From Nitrospirota bacterium (GTDB taxonomy: Bacteria; Nitrospinota_A; UBA7883): a DNA stretch of 41,704 bases. A program made the translations under genes and the position numbers. The number at the start of each line of letters is the position of its first letter. Positions within the stretch are counted from its first letter, which is position 1. Shown piece by piece: positions 4,927 through 41,704 of the stretch. The notes under the pieces were generated by a model, which ran no database searches, had not been told where the DNA came from, and saw only the letters and a list, made by a program, of their open reading frames with translations. The stretch is from contig JAJRZK010000018.1 in assembly GCA_024275315.1 (NCBI GenBank), forward strand, positions 1 through 41,704, given 5' to 3'.

Positions 4927-7020
4927 CTATTTTACCACCTTAAGACCCGGGGAAATCCCCTCCACACCGCCAGAGGGAATCGCGGAAGCTTTGTCTCCAT
5001 GGATTTTCTTGATGTTAAGAACACGTTGTCTGCCATGGTCGTCCGTGAGTGTCAGCTTGTCCCCGGGCTCAAGATGTGACTCTCTGTTTACATGCACCAC
5101 AACAAAACCCCATTTATCGTTTACCGAATCCACCACACCCACTTGCCGGTTTGAAGATTTCGGTTGTGCCTGTGTTGTTTTTGCCGGTTGCGCTGGTTTA
5201 GCCTTTATTTTGCCCAGCTTGGCGCGAACAGCGGCCACTTTTTTGCTATTGGGGCTGATTTCATCGGCCTTGTCAAGAAACTCCCCGGCTTTGGCTGTAT
5301 CGCCGATCGCCAGCGCGTTTTCCGCAAGCTCGACATATCGGTTAAACGCTCCTTGCTTCTTATCACCCCGACCGGTTTCTTTAATATCCTTAGTATCCTG
5401 GCCGGCGGTATTTGCGACCTGTTCAGGGGGGGGTTGCTGGGCCACCGGCGCCGGTGGCGCCTGCGCCCGGGACTTGGCGGTTTTCAGTTTCGCCCGGGCG
5501 GTCTTTACCTGTCCTGCGTCCGGGAGGACGCTTTCGGCTTTTTCAATATACTCCCCGGCTTCATCAAAGTTACCCTCGCCAATGGCTTTATCGGCCATTT
5601 TAAGGTATCGATCCATTATGTTTTCCATGCCTTTTTTGGCTTCATCGGAGCCGGGATCGAGCACCAGCGCGGCCTTGTATTTTTCCAGCGCGTTTTTTCC
5701 TTCCGGAGCAGTCAGACGATTGGCGCTCAAATCCTCCCTGGCCTCGGAAAGCAACAAGTTCACTTCCTCATTTTTCCTGTCCGCGACTTTTGATGATTGA
5801 TCCGGTTTTGGTTTGGCGGGCGTCGCCTCTGGCTTCCGCGCTTCGGTCCTGGCTTGCGCGGCGGCTTTGGGTGTAGTCGCCACCTGCGTTGAGTGTCGCT
5901 CGGTGTTGTTGCCCGTAAGCCCCCATATAATAGCGCCTGATACTATCAGAACCACCGCGGCGATAGAGATAACGGCTACCTTTGGAACACCACCGATTGT
6001 TTTGGCGTTTTTCAGACTATCATAGTAAGACGCTGAAGCCTCCATCGTGGCGCCGTTTTTGGCTTCGGCCGCCTCCTGCTCTAATTGGAGCTTGATTTCC
6101 AAGGCGGAGGAGAATCTGTTTTCCTGGTCCTTTTCCAGGCATTTCATTATGATTGCGTTAAGCTTTTCGGGAATATACCTGTTGTCCGTTATCAGCGGCG
6201 GGGGAGATTCCGCGATGTGCTTGTGCATAAAACCCCACGGTGTGTCCGACCTGAAAGGCAACTGGCCGGAGAGCATCTGGTAAAAAATGACACCAAGCGA
6301 ATAAATATCTGTCCGGTAGTCTATTTTATCCGTTTCACCCTTGGCCTGTTCCGGAGACATATACGCAGGAGTCCCCAACACTCTTCCTCTTAAAGTCAGC
6401 TCCGACTCGTTGTTCGTAGCTTCGTCATACTGGATTGCCTTGGCCAGTCCGAAATCGAGAATCTTCACGACCCGCTGATGACCGACTGTGGCTACGATAA
6501 TATTGTCCCCTTTCAGGTCGCGATGGATTATCCCCTTGTGATGGGCGTATTCCAGCCCGTCGCATATCTGCGGAGCCAGGATACGAAAATTCCGCAACGA
6601 CACCTTACCTTCATTCAAAACCAGGTTGCGCAGGGAATGTCCCTCCACGTACTCCATCACGAAGTAATATTGCCCGGTTGGGGATTTTGAAAAATCGATC
6701 ACACTAACGATATTGGGATGAGAAAGCTTGGTCTGTAACCTCACCTCGCGCTGAAACCTGCGTACAGTGGCCGGATTTTCCGTCAACCTGTCGGAAACAA
6801 CCTTGATGGCGACCGCTTTATCCGTGCTCAACTGGGTAGCCTTGTAAACGGCTCCCATGCCGCCTTCGCCGAGCTTGTGCTCTATTCTGTAGCGGCCGTC
6901 GAACACCTGCCCGGCCATGGAATCTTCAGAGCGTATTACAAGCTCTGATCCGTCGTAGGGGCACAGCTTGAAACCTTCATCGAAAGTCTTGCCGCATTGT
7001 CGGCAGAATGGCTGTTCCAT
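4927..7020 (-). CDS. Transmembrane Ser/Thr protein kinase with N-terminal zinc ribbon and C-terminal repeat region
   Basis: A Hanks-type protein kinase of 697 aa. Domains in order: a short zinc-ribbon-like start (C6, C9, C20, then PYDG), a kinase domain (about 44-312), one transmembrane helix (347-368), an Ala/Pro/Lys-rich linker, two repeats of a TPR-like alpha hairpin (roughly 430-510 and 560-610), and a C-terminal beta-rich domain of about 60 residues. Catalytic features are all present: glycine loop GEGGMGAVYK (51-60), Lys73, HRDLKGDN (166-173), DFG (189-191) and GTPAYMSPEQ (216-225). The kinase faces the cytoplasm and the repeats face the periplasm, so it could sense an envelope signal. 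The ribosome-binding site is weak. A TATAAT on this strand (7093-7098) and the half-site cluster at 7120-7220 lie upstream. Confidence 0.93.
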   Translation of the reverse strand: MEQPFCRQCGKTFDEGFKLCPYDGSELVIRSEDSMAGQVFDGRYRIEHKLGEGGMGAVYKATQLSTDKAVAIKVVSDRLTENPATVRRFQREVRLQTKLSHPNIVSVIDFSKSPTGQYYFVMEYVEGHSLRNLVLNEGKVSLRNFRILAPQICDGLEYAHHKGIIHRDLKGDNIIVATVGHQRVVKILDFGLAKAIQYDEATNNESELTLRGRVLGTPAYMSPEQAKGETDKIDYRTDIYSLGVIFYQMLSGQLPFRSDTPWGFMHKHIAESPPPLITDNRYIPEKLNAIIMKCLEKDQENRFSSALEIKLQLEQEAAEAKNGATMEASASYYDSLKNAKTIGGVPKVAVISIAAVVLIVSGAIIWGLTGNNTERHSTQVATTPKAAAQARTEARKPEATPAKPKPDQSSKVADRKNEEVNLLLSEAREDLSANRLTAPEGKNALEKYKAALVLDPGSDEAKKGMENIMDRYLKMADKAIGEGNFDEAGEYIEKAESVLPDAGQVKTARAKLKTAKSRAQAPPAPVAQQPPPEQVANTAGQDTKDIKETGRGDKKQGAFNRYVELAENALAIGDTAKAGEFLDKADEISPNSKKVAAVRAKLGKIKAKPAQPAKTTQAQPKSSNRQVGVVDSVNDKWGFVVVHVNRESHLEPGDKLTLTDDHGRQRVLNIKKIHGDKASAIPSGGVEGISPGLKVVK

Positions 7021-36372: not shown

Positions 36373-37689
36373 TTACGCCCTCATGTCCACTATGCCTTGC
36401 GCAGAGACCTGGGTATAGTTTTCCATCTCTTCGGTTATATGTTTCATGTCAGAGGAGGCAACCTCGAACCGGGCTGTGTACCCCGCCACTTCCAACGGTT
36501 TTATAAGCTCGGGCAACTTGTCCGAGACATAACGGGCGACTGTGTCATTAAGGACATAAACAGAACCGGTCACCTTGTCGTCGGTCACGTTCACATCCAC
36601 CCGCACAGGTCCCAGCTTGCTCATGTTCAGCATGAACACCACCGTGCTTTTATTTTCGTTTCGCATGTTCGCCTGGGCCTGTTCATCCGCCCGGGGGCGG
36701 ATATATACCCGCGCGGTCTCGTGGTTCATTCCACTGATAAACGGCAGTTGGTAAAGGGCCTGGGCGGTTCCTCCCTTCTCCTTTGCGGTGGCGTTTAAAA
36801 GCTGGTTCAGTTCGATATTGTTGACCGCGTCACGAAGCTGTTTGGCGGTGTCGTTAAGCTTGACCAGTTCGACAAAAGCCGGATCTGAAGCCTGCCGGGC
36901 GCTTGCCGCGGTGTCCTGCGGCGGGAGAACGCCGGTGTGCCGGGTCACGCCGGGCGGTCCCGCCCCCTTCCTGTTAATCGGGAATCTGGTCTCATGAGCG
37001 GGGTTATCCGGTCCTGCGCTCCTGGTCTGTGGTTGAGATTTGTCCCCGATCTGTTTTGCCAGCCTGGCCATCCTCTCCTCTACCATGGCCAGTGTTTTGC
37101 CGATCATGGCTTTGACATCCAGTTCAATCGCCGCTCGGATGGATTGTGGCGACGCCTTCCCCTGGGCGGCTTCTTTCAGAGTCGATTCCAGAAACAGGCC
37201 GGAGCGTTTGATGGTCTCCTTTAATTTGTCTGGCGTGATCTCCCCAAGGTCTGTCATCGCGACTTTCGCCAGCGTGGCGGACAGGTTTTTGAGCGCCTGT
37301 TCCATTTTCGTCGGGAGCCCGGGCTGTTGGGCGGCTTCGGCCACTTTCGACAGGACCTCCCCCATGGGAGCCTTGGTTGGCAACAGCAACCTCATGAGCG
37401 CGGTGGTTTTCAGCTCCTTGGCGGACTCCGCCTTTAGCAGGCTTATGGTAATGTTTGGTGTCACAGCTTCGATTTTGCCGACTATGTTCTGGCCAGTCGT
37501 CATCCTTGATTGTGTAAGCGCGACCATCTCGATTCCAGACAGGCGCACAAGGGCCTGGTTTTTGGATATGACCTGCAAAACTTTCCCCTCTACCAGGTCG
37601 CCTTTGTGGAACAGGCTTTTCTGGTCGCCAGAGCCCATGATTTTCATAGCCGCCTGGAATATCGAAGGAGGTACGGACCCTGTGAACAT
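36373..37689 (-). CDS. fliK: Flagellar hook-length control protein FliK
   Basis: A 438 aa secreted ruler protein that measures hook length and then triggers the FlhB specificity switch. The C-terminal Flg_hook domain (about 330-425) is recognisable: LNMSKLGPVRVDVNV, then VTGSVYVLNDTVARYVSDKLPEL and AGYTARFEV. The long N-terminal part is Ala/Lys-rich with low complexity, and includes a Pro- and Gln-rich linker near 225-270, typical of FliK. The start is the ATG at 37689, 7 bp after the upstream stop. An ATG at 37731 would overlap the upstream gene by 35 bp and has no better ribosome-binding site. The FlhB-like gene follows directly, the expected partner in the switch. Confidence 0.85.
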   Translation of the reverse strand: MFTGSVPPSIFQAAMKIMGSGDQKSLFHKGDLVEGKVLQVISKNQALVRLSGIEMVALTQSRMTTGQNIVGKIEAVTPNITISLLKAESAKELKTTALMRLLLPTKAPMGEVLSKVAEAAQQPGLPTKMEQALKNLSATLAKVAMTDLGEITPDKLKETIKRSGLFLESTLKEAAQGKASPQSIRAAIELDVKAMIGKTLAMVEERMARLAKQIGDKSQPQTRSAGPDNPAHETRFPINRKGAGPPGVTRHTGVLPPQDTAASARQASDPAFVELVKLNDTAKQLRDAVNNIELNQLLNATAKEKGGTAQALYQLPFISGMNHETARVYIRPRADEQAQANMRNENKSTVVFMLNMSKLGPVRVDVNVTDDKVTGSVYVLNDTVARYVSDKLPELIKPLEVAGYTARFEVASSDMKHITEEMENYTQVSAQGIVDMRA

Positions 37690-37696
37690 CTTGAGA

Positions 37697-38143
37697 TTAT
37701 GTCGCCAGGTTCCGGATGAGGCTGATTTCATGAGCCGGGAGGCCGATCTTCCCGCTGATCTCCTCGTCTGGCAATCCCTTTTTTATGAGCCTGACCGCTT
37801 TTTCATATAACTCGGACCCGGGATCCGGGCCGACGGCCGATTTCCGACCGGACGGAGGCTGGCTTGTCGGCGCCGCTTTTCGCTTATCCCCACCGGTGGC
37901 GGCATTCGTGGCGCTGGAGGCTTTTTCTATCCGTTCGGCTACCTTCTCGGCGCGAATAACCAGCTTGGCCAGCTCGTCCATAAGCGATTCTAGCTGATGT
38001 ATATCGACCTGCTCATGCGTCTTCTGGTCGTCATCACCGAAATTCTCCAGGTCGGGGGTTTTGCTTTCACGCACTATGTAAAATACGACAAGCGCGAAAA
38101 GGGCGACATCCACCAGCAGTTGGAAGAACATCCAGTTGTTCAT
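37697..38143 (-). CDS. DUF2802-like flagellar-cluster protein
   Basis: A 148 aa protein with one N-terminal transmembrane helix (about 6-24), an acidic coiled-coil segment (about 45-75), a Lys/Pro-rich linker (75-105) and a C-terminal domain of about 40 residues. That last domain reads YEKAVRLIKKGLPDEEISGKIGLPAHEISLIRNL, a helix-turn-helix-like unit seen in DUF2802/DUF6115 proteins of flagellar gene clusters. I place it there from memory of that pattern. Function is unknown. It precedes fliK with a 7-bp gap and follows a small soluble gene. Confidence 0.7.
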   Translation of the reverse strand: MNNWMFFQLLVDVALFALVVFYIVRESKTPDLENFGDDDQKTHEQVDIHQLESLMDELAKLVIRAEKVAERIEKASSATNAATGGDKRKAAPTSQPPSGRKSAVGPDPGSELYEKAVRLIKKGLPDEEISGKIGLPAHEISLIRNLAT

Positions 38144-38878: not shown

Positions 38879-40966
38879 ATGAAGACTTTCGCGCCTGACA
38901 AAATCAGAAATGTGGGTATTGCCGCTCATAGCGGCGCCGGTAAAACCTCGCTTGCAGAGGCTATGATGTATGATTCCGGCGCTGTCAACCGTCTTGGCTC
39001 CGTGGATAACGGGACATCAGTTATGGATTTCGATCCCGAAGAGATCAAGCGCAAAATTTCCATTTCCACATCCATAGCCACGTGCGAATGGAAAAATCAC
39101 AAAATTAACATTCTGGACACGCCGGGCGACCAGAACTTCATCCCCGACGCCCTGGCCTCCATGGAGGTTATGGATTCTGTAATCATCATGGTTCCCGCAG
39201 ACACCGGGATAAAAGTCCAGACTGAAAAGGTGTGGAACTGGGTGAAAGACAGAAACCTCGCCCGTGTTATTTTCATCAACAAAATGGATGTTGAGCGCGC
39301 CTCCTACGACGACATGATCGAGCAAATCCATCAGGTGTTCAAGCATAAGATCATCCGGCTGACCCTGCCGATAGGAGCAGGGGAGAATTTCAAGGGTGTG
39401 GTCGATTTGCTGTACATGAAAGCGTATGTATACAAAAAAGACGGCGACGGACAATTCGAAACCACCGATGTTCCGGAAGACCTGCTGGAAAACGCGGAAA
39501 AGGAGCGGCAGGAGCTGGTGGAGACGGTAGCGGAAACCGACGAGGACTTGCTGGAAAAATTCATGGAACACGGCACACTTGAGGACGAGGACCTTTACGC
39601 CGGTTTCAGAAAAGCCATAATCTCCGGCGATGTGGCGCCAGTGGTTTGCGGGTCGGCGACGTTAAATATCGTCGTGCGCAAGACGCTGGATCTTGTCGTC
39701 AACTTCCTTCCGTCTCCTGTTGATGTTCCCCCGCGCAAGGCCAGCGACGGCGAAGGCGCCGAAATCGAGATCACCCCCGACGCCGAGGGGGCTCCGGTGG
39801 GGCTTGTGTTCAAAACCATCGCGGATCCATACGCGGGAAAGCTCAGCGTTTTTCGGGTATACTCCGGCTCTTTCAGCTCCGACAGCAACGTGTTCAACAG
39901 CACGCGCAATGAAAAGGAGCATATGGGGTCGTTGCTGGGGCTTCAAGGCAAAAAACAGACCCCGGTCACCAAAGCGGTGCTGGGGGACATTGCCGCTGTG
40001 GCCAAGCTTAAAACCGTGGTTACGGGGGATACCCTGTGCGGAACGAAATCCAGGGTGGTTTTTTCCACTCCTGAAATGCCGGCGCCGGTCATATCATTTG
40101 CCGTATCTCCAAAATCCAAAGGGGACGAGGAAAAGGTCTCCGTAGCGTTGTCGCGCATGATGGAGGAGGATCCCACCCTTCGGATGGGTCTTGACAGGCA
40201 GACCAAAGAGATGATCGTTTCCGGCATGGGCCAGGTGCACATCGAGGTGGTCATCAGCAAGCTCAAGGAAAAGTTTGGCGTGGAGGTGGAGATAAAACCG
40301 CCGCGCATCGCCTACAAGGAGACCATCAGGGGGTCCGCCAAGGGGCATGGCCGGCTCAAGAAACAATCGGGTGGCCGGGGCCAGTTCGCCGATTGCCACC
40401 TGGAGATAAGCCCGGCGGACGACTCCAAGGAGTTTGAGTTTGTCGACGCCATCGTGGGGGGCGCCATACCGAAACAGTACATACCCGGGGTTGAAAAGGG
40501 TGTGCTGGAAGTTATGTCGCATGGCGTCCTGGCCGGATATCCGGTCACCGCCTGCAAGGTGAAACTGTTCGACGGAAAATTCCATGATGTGGACTCGTCG
40601 GAGCTAGCTTTCAAGATCGCGGCGTCGATGGCTTTCAAGGAGGCGTTCATGAACGCCAAGCCTGTGCTTTTAGAGCCAATCATGGAGATTCAGATCGAGG
40701 CGCCCGAAGAGTGTATCGGTGATGTCATGGGAGACCTGAACCAGAGGCGTGGCCGCGTGCTGGGCGTGGATACAACAGGTAGCATGCAGAAAATCAACGC
40801 CCTTGTTCCTATGGCCGAATCGCTTACGTACGCCCCGGACCTGCGTTCCATAACAGGCGGGCGCGGGCAGTTTGCCATGCATTTCTCATCGTATGAAGAA
40901 GTCCCGTCCAATATCGCGGCGAAGGTCATAGAAAGCGCGAACGGGGACAAGGAGGGGAGCAAATAG
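38879..40966 (+). CDS. EF-G-like translational GTPase (EF-G2 / FusA2 type)
   Basis: A 695 aa protein with the five-domain EF-G layout. Its G domain differs from housekeeping EF-G. The P-loop is AHSGAGKTS (16-24, where EF-G has AHIDAGKT). The switch-II motif is DTPGD (80-84), so the catalytic His of DTPGH is Asp. NKMD (134-137) is intact. The segments GMGQVHIEVV and GRGQFADCHLE, and GRVLGVDTTGSMQKINALVPMAE near the C-terminus, match domains III to V. EF-G2 of Thermus shows a similar P-loop. Such proteins can act in ribosome recycling or have low GTPase activity. A good GGAG lies 5 nt before the ATG. The next gene starts 16 bp after its stop. Confidence 0.9.
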   Translation: MKTFAPDKIRNVGIAAHSGAGKTSLAEAMMYDSGAVNRLGSVDNGTSVMDFDPEEIKRKISISTSIATCEWKNHKINILDTPGDQNFIPDALASMEVMDSVIIMVPADTGIKVQTEKVWNWVKDRNLARVIFINKMDVERASYDDMIEQIHQVFKHKIIRLTLPIGAGENFKGVVDLLYMKAYVYKKDGDGQFETTDVPEDLLENAEKERQELVETVAETDEDLLEKFMEHGTLEDEDLYAGFRKAIISGDVAPVVCGSATLNIVVRKTLDLVVNFLPSPVDVPPRKASDGEGAEIEITPDAEGAPVGLVFKTIADPYAGKLSVFRVYSGSFSSDSNVFNSTRNEKEHMGSLLGLQGKKQTPVTKAVLGDIAAVAKLKTVVTGDTLCGTKSRVVFSTPEMPAPVISFAVSPKSKGDEEKVSVALSRMMEEDPTLRMGLDRQTKEMIVSGMGQVHIEVVISKLKEKFGVEVEIKPPRIAYKETIRGSAKGHGRLKKQSGGRGQFADCHLEISPADDSKEFEFVDAIVGGAIPKQYIPGVEKGVLEVMSHGVLAGYPVTACKVKLFDGKFHDVDSSELAFKIAASMAFKEAFMNAKPVLLEPIMEIQIEAPEECIGDVMGDLNQRRGRVLGVDTTGSMQKINALVPMAESLTYAPDLRSITGGRGQFAMHFSSYEEVPSNIAAKVIESANGDKEGSK

Positions 40967-40982
40967 CTGGGCGGATCGATAG

Positions 40983-41585
40983 ATGCGGAAATTCAACCTC
41001 CTCCACGAGCTGAATAATATCCGCAACACGATCACGCCTGACACACCACTGCCCGGCGAGCGCGCCCCGGTTGGGGGGAAACGGGGATTGCTGTTAGGTC
41101 TATTCCTTGTTGCCGTGTTGGCCGTGGGTGGCGCTTTGTGGAGCCAGAAGTCGCAAACCGACGCTCCGCGCATGGCCGACACGGGACCAGACGAATCCAG
41201 TCCGGCGCCCGCCGCTGATTCGCTTTTGGCGGATGACGGGTCCGGGTTGGCCCGGGATGAGCGCTCACCACTTCTGGCCGACGCAAACACCCCCGCTCCT
41301 GACGAAGTTGAACCTGTAAAAAAACCGTCATCGGCAGGGCCGCATCCGAAGAGGATGGCGGCTGTGCCTTCCACGAAACCGCCAGGGTATGAACCGGCGC
41401 AAGAACCGATAAAACCGATTATGTCGCGTCCCGTCGCAAAAGGGGCCGCCCCGGCGAAGAAACCTCCCGCAATAGCCAGGCGCAAGGCGAAGACCGGGGG
41501 GAAAGGTGACGTCTGGTCTGTCAGGTTCGCTTTGTGCGTTATGAAGCGGAGCTGTGAGGAAATTGTCGGAAAGCTTAAACAGTAG
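40983..41585 (+). CDS. Membrane protein with SPOR-like C-terminal domain, cut by an in-frame amber codon
   Basis: As read to the first stop it is 200 aa: a cytoplasmic start (1-34), one transmembrane helix (35-53), a Pro/Ala/Lys-rich periplasmic linker (54-170), and the first part of a SPOR-like domain (WSVRFALCV...EEIVGKLKQ, from about 177). The stop is TAG at 41583-41585. The same frame stays open after it (41586 to the window end) and continues the second half of a SPOR domain. SPOR domains bind denuded peptidoglycan at septa. The start is ATG 16 bp after the EF-G2-like stop, with a weak GGAT about 10 nt upstream. Its truth as a short protein, a nonsense allele or a readthrough gene is open. 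Confidence 0.65.
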   Translation: MRKFNLLHELNNIRNTITPDTPLPGERAPVGGKRGLLLGLFLVAVLAVGGALWSQKSQTDAPRMADTGPDESSPAPAADSLLADDGSGLARDERSPLLADANTPAPDEVEPVKKPSSAGPHPKRMAAVPSTKPPGYEPAQEPIKPIMSRPVAKGAAPAKKPPAIARRKAKTGGKGDVWSVRFALCVMKRSCEEIVGKLKQ

Positions 41586-41704
41586 GGGATTCACGCGTTT
41601 ATGGTCGAGGGGCGGGCGGTTTTGAGCATGCGTGAAATTGTGATCGGCCACTGGCAGACCGCCGCCCAGGCGAAGGTCGCCAGGAAGGAGTTGTCAAAAT
41701 CGGC
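41586..41704 (+). other. In-frame continuation of the SPOR-like domain beyond the TAG, off the window edge
   Basis: 39 codons continue without a stop: GIHAFMVEGRAVL, then REIVIGHWQTAAQAKVARKEL. This matches the second half of a SPOR domain, with its hydrophobic strand followed by a Gly-aromatic turn (GHW) and a helix ending in KEL. An ATG at 41601 could restart translation but lacks a good ribosome-binding site. The 3' end is outside the window. Confidence 0.55.

Follow-up and report, generated by a model that had tools for sequence, protein, structure and literature searches.

Gene content at the end of the contig

The window, by which we mean the whole stretch of DNA analysed, is contig C7 in its entirety (41,704 bases). 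It comes from a genome assembled into 63 contigs, and the end of the window is the physical end of the contig. At the other end of C7 (positions 1-268) there is a tandem repeat with a unit of 104 bases (2.6 copies, 93% matches), which is probably why the contig breaks there. The same repeat is found, in opposite orientation, at the start of contig C32.

The gene considered here encodes a SPOR-domain protein and starts 16 bases past a gene of the elongation factor G (EF-G) type (Table 1). Near the EF-G gene, the protein encoded at positions 36373-37731 has a flagellar hook-length control domain of the FliK type (Flg_hook, PF02120; E = 2.3e-7), and a small gene (37697-38143) with a weak match to DUF2802 adjoins it. 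Read by eye, the SPOR-domain protein has a hydrophobic stretch at about residues 35-54, followed by a Pro/Ala/Lys-rich linker and the start of a first SPOR-like repeat. The frame is then interrupted by a TAG. As an earlier note on this DNA had described, the TAG is in frame with the ATG-started open reading frame (ORF) and is followed by 39 stop-free codons (41586-41702), which run to the end of the window.

Table 1. Features at the right-hand end of contig C7 and the overlap with contig C53
Feature	Position	Strand	Remarks
Elongation factor G type gene	38879..40966	+	Pfam; synteny; directly upstream
SPOR-domain protein gene, 5' part as in C7	40983..41585	+	ATG to apparent TAG, 200 aa; homologous ORFs in relatives
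Apparent in-frame TAG	41583..41585	+	121 bases from contig tip; CAG in C53
First SPOR-like repeat, continued	41586..41704	+	Open to contig end; gene carries on in C53
Dovetail overlap of C7 and C53	C7 41381..41704; C53 71187-71510	Opposite	324 bases, 322/324 identical

Continuation of the gene on a second contig

A search of the genome with this DNA returned two places only, C7 and contig C53. The two contigs form a dovetail, and the match runs precisely to the tip of each, as it does between neighbouring contigs. They differ at two positions, 91 bases apart. At 41492, C7 has AAG and C53 has AAA, both of which encode Lys. At 41583, C7 has TAG and C53 has CAG, which bears out the earlier remark that the stop codon lies one C/T difference from CAG. 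A C at 41583, named beforehand as the observation that would speak against a nonsense mutation, is seen at the contig level in C53.

On C53 the frame runs for 192 codons before it meets a stop, and a gene for a MerR-type regulator follows (MerR_1, PF13411; E = 5.8e-19). Residues 117-188 of the 192-residue C53 piece, beyond the window, match the SPOR family (PF05036; Pfam, E = 1.6e-8) with 35.2 bits, above the gathering cut-off of 21, and the same family is matched by all 12 aligned members (E up to 0.01). The proposal that this is a SPOR-type gene whose frame goes on past the TAG as the expected second half is upheld by C53, where the frame is open through the Pfam SPOR domain. The N-terminal SPOR-like repeat was not recognised in the Pfam search. 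A comparison of profiles nevertheless pairs it with the C-terminal SPOR repeat (hhalign probability 96, E = 2.2e-9), so that a SPOR-like domain split by the stop is a fair picture, with the refinement that the stop falls inside the N-terminal of two SPOR-like repeats.

In a typical SPOR protein, a membrane anchor at the N-terminus is accompanied by a low-complexity linker and by a SPOR domain, which recognises peptide-stripped glycan strands at the division site (PMC6895207, in the part of that article available to us). Judging from the Pfam family and this published layout, the gene product is probably a membrane-anchored protein with SPOR-like repeats that bind peptidoglycan at the division site.

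Conservation of the locus in relatives

A search for homologues in 40 genomes, including the window's own (E up to 0.001), gave 20 matches in 18 of the 39 other genomes and none in the remaining 21. All 20 matches span the site of the TAG, and none has an internal stop. In the 11 aligned ORFs, the residue at the site is Lys in seven and Arg, Met, Glu, or Thr in one each; in none does the protein end there. A natural short protein, which the earlier note had offered as an alternative, was rejected on these two counts. A scan of genome contigs with the protein found no relative, and a plasmid search gave no match.

The order EF-G, SPOR gene, MerR on one contig is found in 10 of the relatives' 12 neighbourhoods (E up to 1e-4). 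These 10 include L053, where EF-G is cut by a contig end. At the same threshold, L055 has the SPOR gene and MerR, and L056 has MerR only. EF-G and the beginning of the SPOR gene are on C7; C53 carries the remainder and MerR. Given the conserved gene order, we take C7 and C53 to be two sides of one locus rather than two copies. Gene duplication was rejected for the same reason, together with the ending of the overlap at both contig tips.

The four closest EF-G loci (69, 66, 55, and 55% identity) are labelled Nitrospinaceae or Nitrospinota, which probably places the organism in that group. In two of them (L163 and L164) the SPOR gene and MerR follow EF-G. In L162 (Nitrospinaceae UBA7883), MerR follows without a SPOR gene in between (EF-G match to 6049, MerR match from 6185); at this EF-G/MerR locus (6050-6185) the SPOR gene has been lost or was never gained. 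In L165, neither a SPOR gene nor MerR was found after EF-G (E up to 0.001). The homologue search also gave no match to the gene in G004, a genome of the same family. Because the gene is not universal (the 21 genomes without a match, and L162), a real loss allele would be tolerable.

A common signature at contig tips

The 126 contig ends of the assembly were compared as 600-base pieces, eight of which, from four contigs, consist entirely of N. Scanning for ungapped dovetails of at least 100 bases with at most 3% differences yielded 20: ten exact overlaps of 141 bases, four with a two-difference signature, and six others that are shorter and have zero to two differences (for example C58/C21, one in 185 bases). 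The four signature pairs, with two differences each, are C7/C53 (324 bases), C39/C42 (343), C40/C49 (317), and C1/C39 (349). BLAST added a fifth, C23/C24 (337 bases), with a mismatch and a gap. The two differences of each of the four ungapped pairs lie 79-107 bases apart and 111-124 bases from the overlap edges; reading the C23/C24 alignment gives a spacing of about 102 bases and distances of 121 and 113 from the edges. Since the edges of the overlaps are the tips of the contigs, each member of a pair has one of the two differences 111-124 bases in from its own tip. For the window, the T at 41583 is that difference, at a distance of 121 bases. The overlapping contig disagrees with C7 near its tip, as an assembly-tip artefact predicts, and five dovetails share the signature.

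In a separate case, contig C15 closes with 600 bases (L114, 67113-67712) that are identical to its first 600 (L019, 1-600) in reverse complement, which is either a long inverted terminal repeat or an effect of assembly.

Which form is odd at the ten differences

By effect on the predicted proteins, the ten differences of the five pairs comprise three synonymous changes, five missense changes, one stop, and one frameshift. For five of them it can be said which form is odd. In all five, the contig with the nearer tip carries the odd form, and the predicted protein is altered each time. The first is the stop in C7 (CAG in C53). C40 has a Val at a site that is Gly in C49 and in the matches of 13 of 13 relatives. 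At one site of a gene of the Bac_transf family, C1 encodes Leu and C39 encodes Trp, as do the six closest of 13 relatives (the more distant relatives have Leu in five cases and Phe and Arg in one each). Towards the end of a P-II gene, C39 differs by a base from C42, and it is C42 that agrees with six of six aligned relatives, as deduced from the residues (two further rows are gapped there). Finally, C24 lacks one base, which disrupts a frame that is open in C23; here the reading frame was the only guide.

The other five differences were not polarised. Three are synonymous according to the translations: that at 41492, one in C40/C49, and one in C23/C24. The remaining two lie close to the start of an ammonium-transporter gene (Ala/Thr) and in a sugar-transferase gene (Val/Leu), and at both sites the relatives have both residues. 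One of the C39/C42 differences is upstream of the likely start of the transporter, in the end of the P-II gene (Pfam P-II). The gene fragment shared by C40 and C49 had no match in Pfam; we take it to be FwdA-like. At L077, L138, and L148 (contigs C39 and C49), the contig tips make P-II, sugar-transferase, and FwdA-like genes appear altered at conserved sites relative to the contigs that overlap them.

Odd forms that sit on the contig with the nearer tip and change the protein fit erroneous terminal arms of contigs, although the numbers are small and do not amount to proof. Alleles of different strains are expected to be mostly silent and not to be tied to a tip, and the pattern observed speaks against them.

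Interpretation of the apparent stop codon

We conclude that the gene is, in all likelihood, intact in the organism and that the TAG is most probably an artefact of the contig tip. The T would be an error in the terminal arm of C7, or at most a rare allele of some strain; of these two, we infer that an error is much the likelier. The ten exact 141-base overlaps suggest that the assembler used a de Bruijn graph and words of 141 bases. At a weak spot in such an assembly graph, a branch with an erroneous or very rare read most likely survived as a dead end that now terminates C7. C53 would have grown towards it from the opposite direction on a branch of its own, with CAG and the remainder of the gene. 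The odd base 121 bases before the tip of C7 would then merely happen to create a stop.

The alternative that survives best, although an improbable one, is a true nonsense allele segregating in a wild, Nitrospinota-like population of TAG and CAG strains, one of which was retained by the assembler at either contig end. Two haplotypes could account for two differences at a spacing of 91 bases in a 324-base overlap, and some members of the group seem able to do without the gene, judging from the lack of a match in G004 and of a SPOR gene at the L162 locus. If this were the case, the TAG would truncate an envelope protein that is absent at the locus in at least one relative, and the gene would be on its way to loss. 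However, all five polarisable odd forms (a stop, a frameshift, and three missense changes) are on the contig with the nearer tip, and only three of the ten differences are synonymous, whereas haplotypes under selection would be expected to differ mostly silently (small numbers in both cases).

A recent nonsense mutation of the organism, which the earlier note had regarded as the simplest explanation, is very hard to sustain as a fixed change, whether it affects a second gene copy or the sole one. The frame after the stop is undecayed, and the two contigs differ there by the one C/T change from CAG. Against this, the stop is within the last 122 bases of its contig and absent from the overlapping one; the overlap halts at both tips, with each contig being one side of a single syntenic locus; the genome search found just two places for this DNA; and the same tip signature recurs at four other contig joins of the assembly. 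Classification as a pseudogene is likewise not supported: the stop is seen only at a contig tip, and C53, of the same assembly, has CAG.

Programmed readthrough, or the reading of TAG as an amino acid, can draw on the frame being open past the TAG but is exceedingly unlikely: readthrough is unneeded, neither C53 nor any of the 20 homologous matches has a stop at the site, and TAG is not avoided as a terminator, closing 11 of the 33 mechanically chosen long ORFs in the window, including EF-G.

With a tip artefact as the preferred reading of the TAG, this case illustrates how a comparison of contig tips with one another, which needs nothing beyond the assembly, can expose a seemingly broken gene at the end of a contig as an effect of assembly. 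In assemblies like this one, the last approximately 120 bases of a contig are unfit for calling pseudogenes, recoding, or frameshifts.

Comparison with known systems

Fragmented assemblies result when microdiversity and sequencing errors complicate de Bruijn graphs (PMC11443906, in the part of that article available to us). In the portions of the literature on contig ends and premature stops that were accessible, we found no description of a two-difference signature about 111-124 bases from contig tips. The exact 141-base overlaps at ten pairs of contig ends fit the contig ends of short-read metagenomes assembled with a de Bruijn graph; what sets the present ends apart from error- or variant-bearing short-read contig ends in general is the two-difference tip signature measured here.

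The protein itself shares a C-terminal SPOR domain (PF05036) with proteins such as FtsN, DamX, DedD, and RlpA. An apparent membrane anchor (by eye) and a low-complexity linker, parts of the usual layout as given in the available text of PMC6895207, are present here also. Unlike those proteins, it has two SPOR-like repeats, the first of which is too divergent for Pfam.
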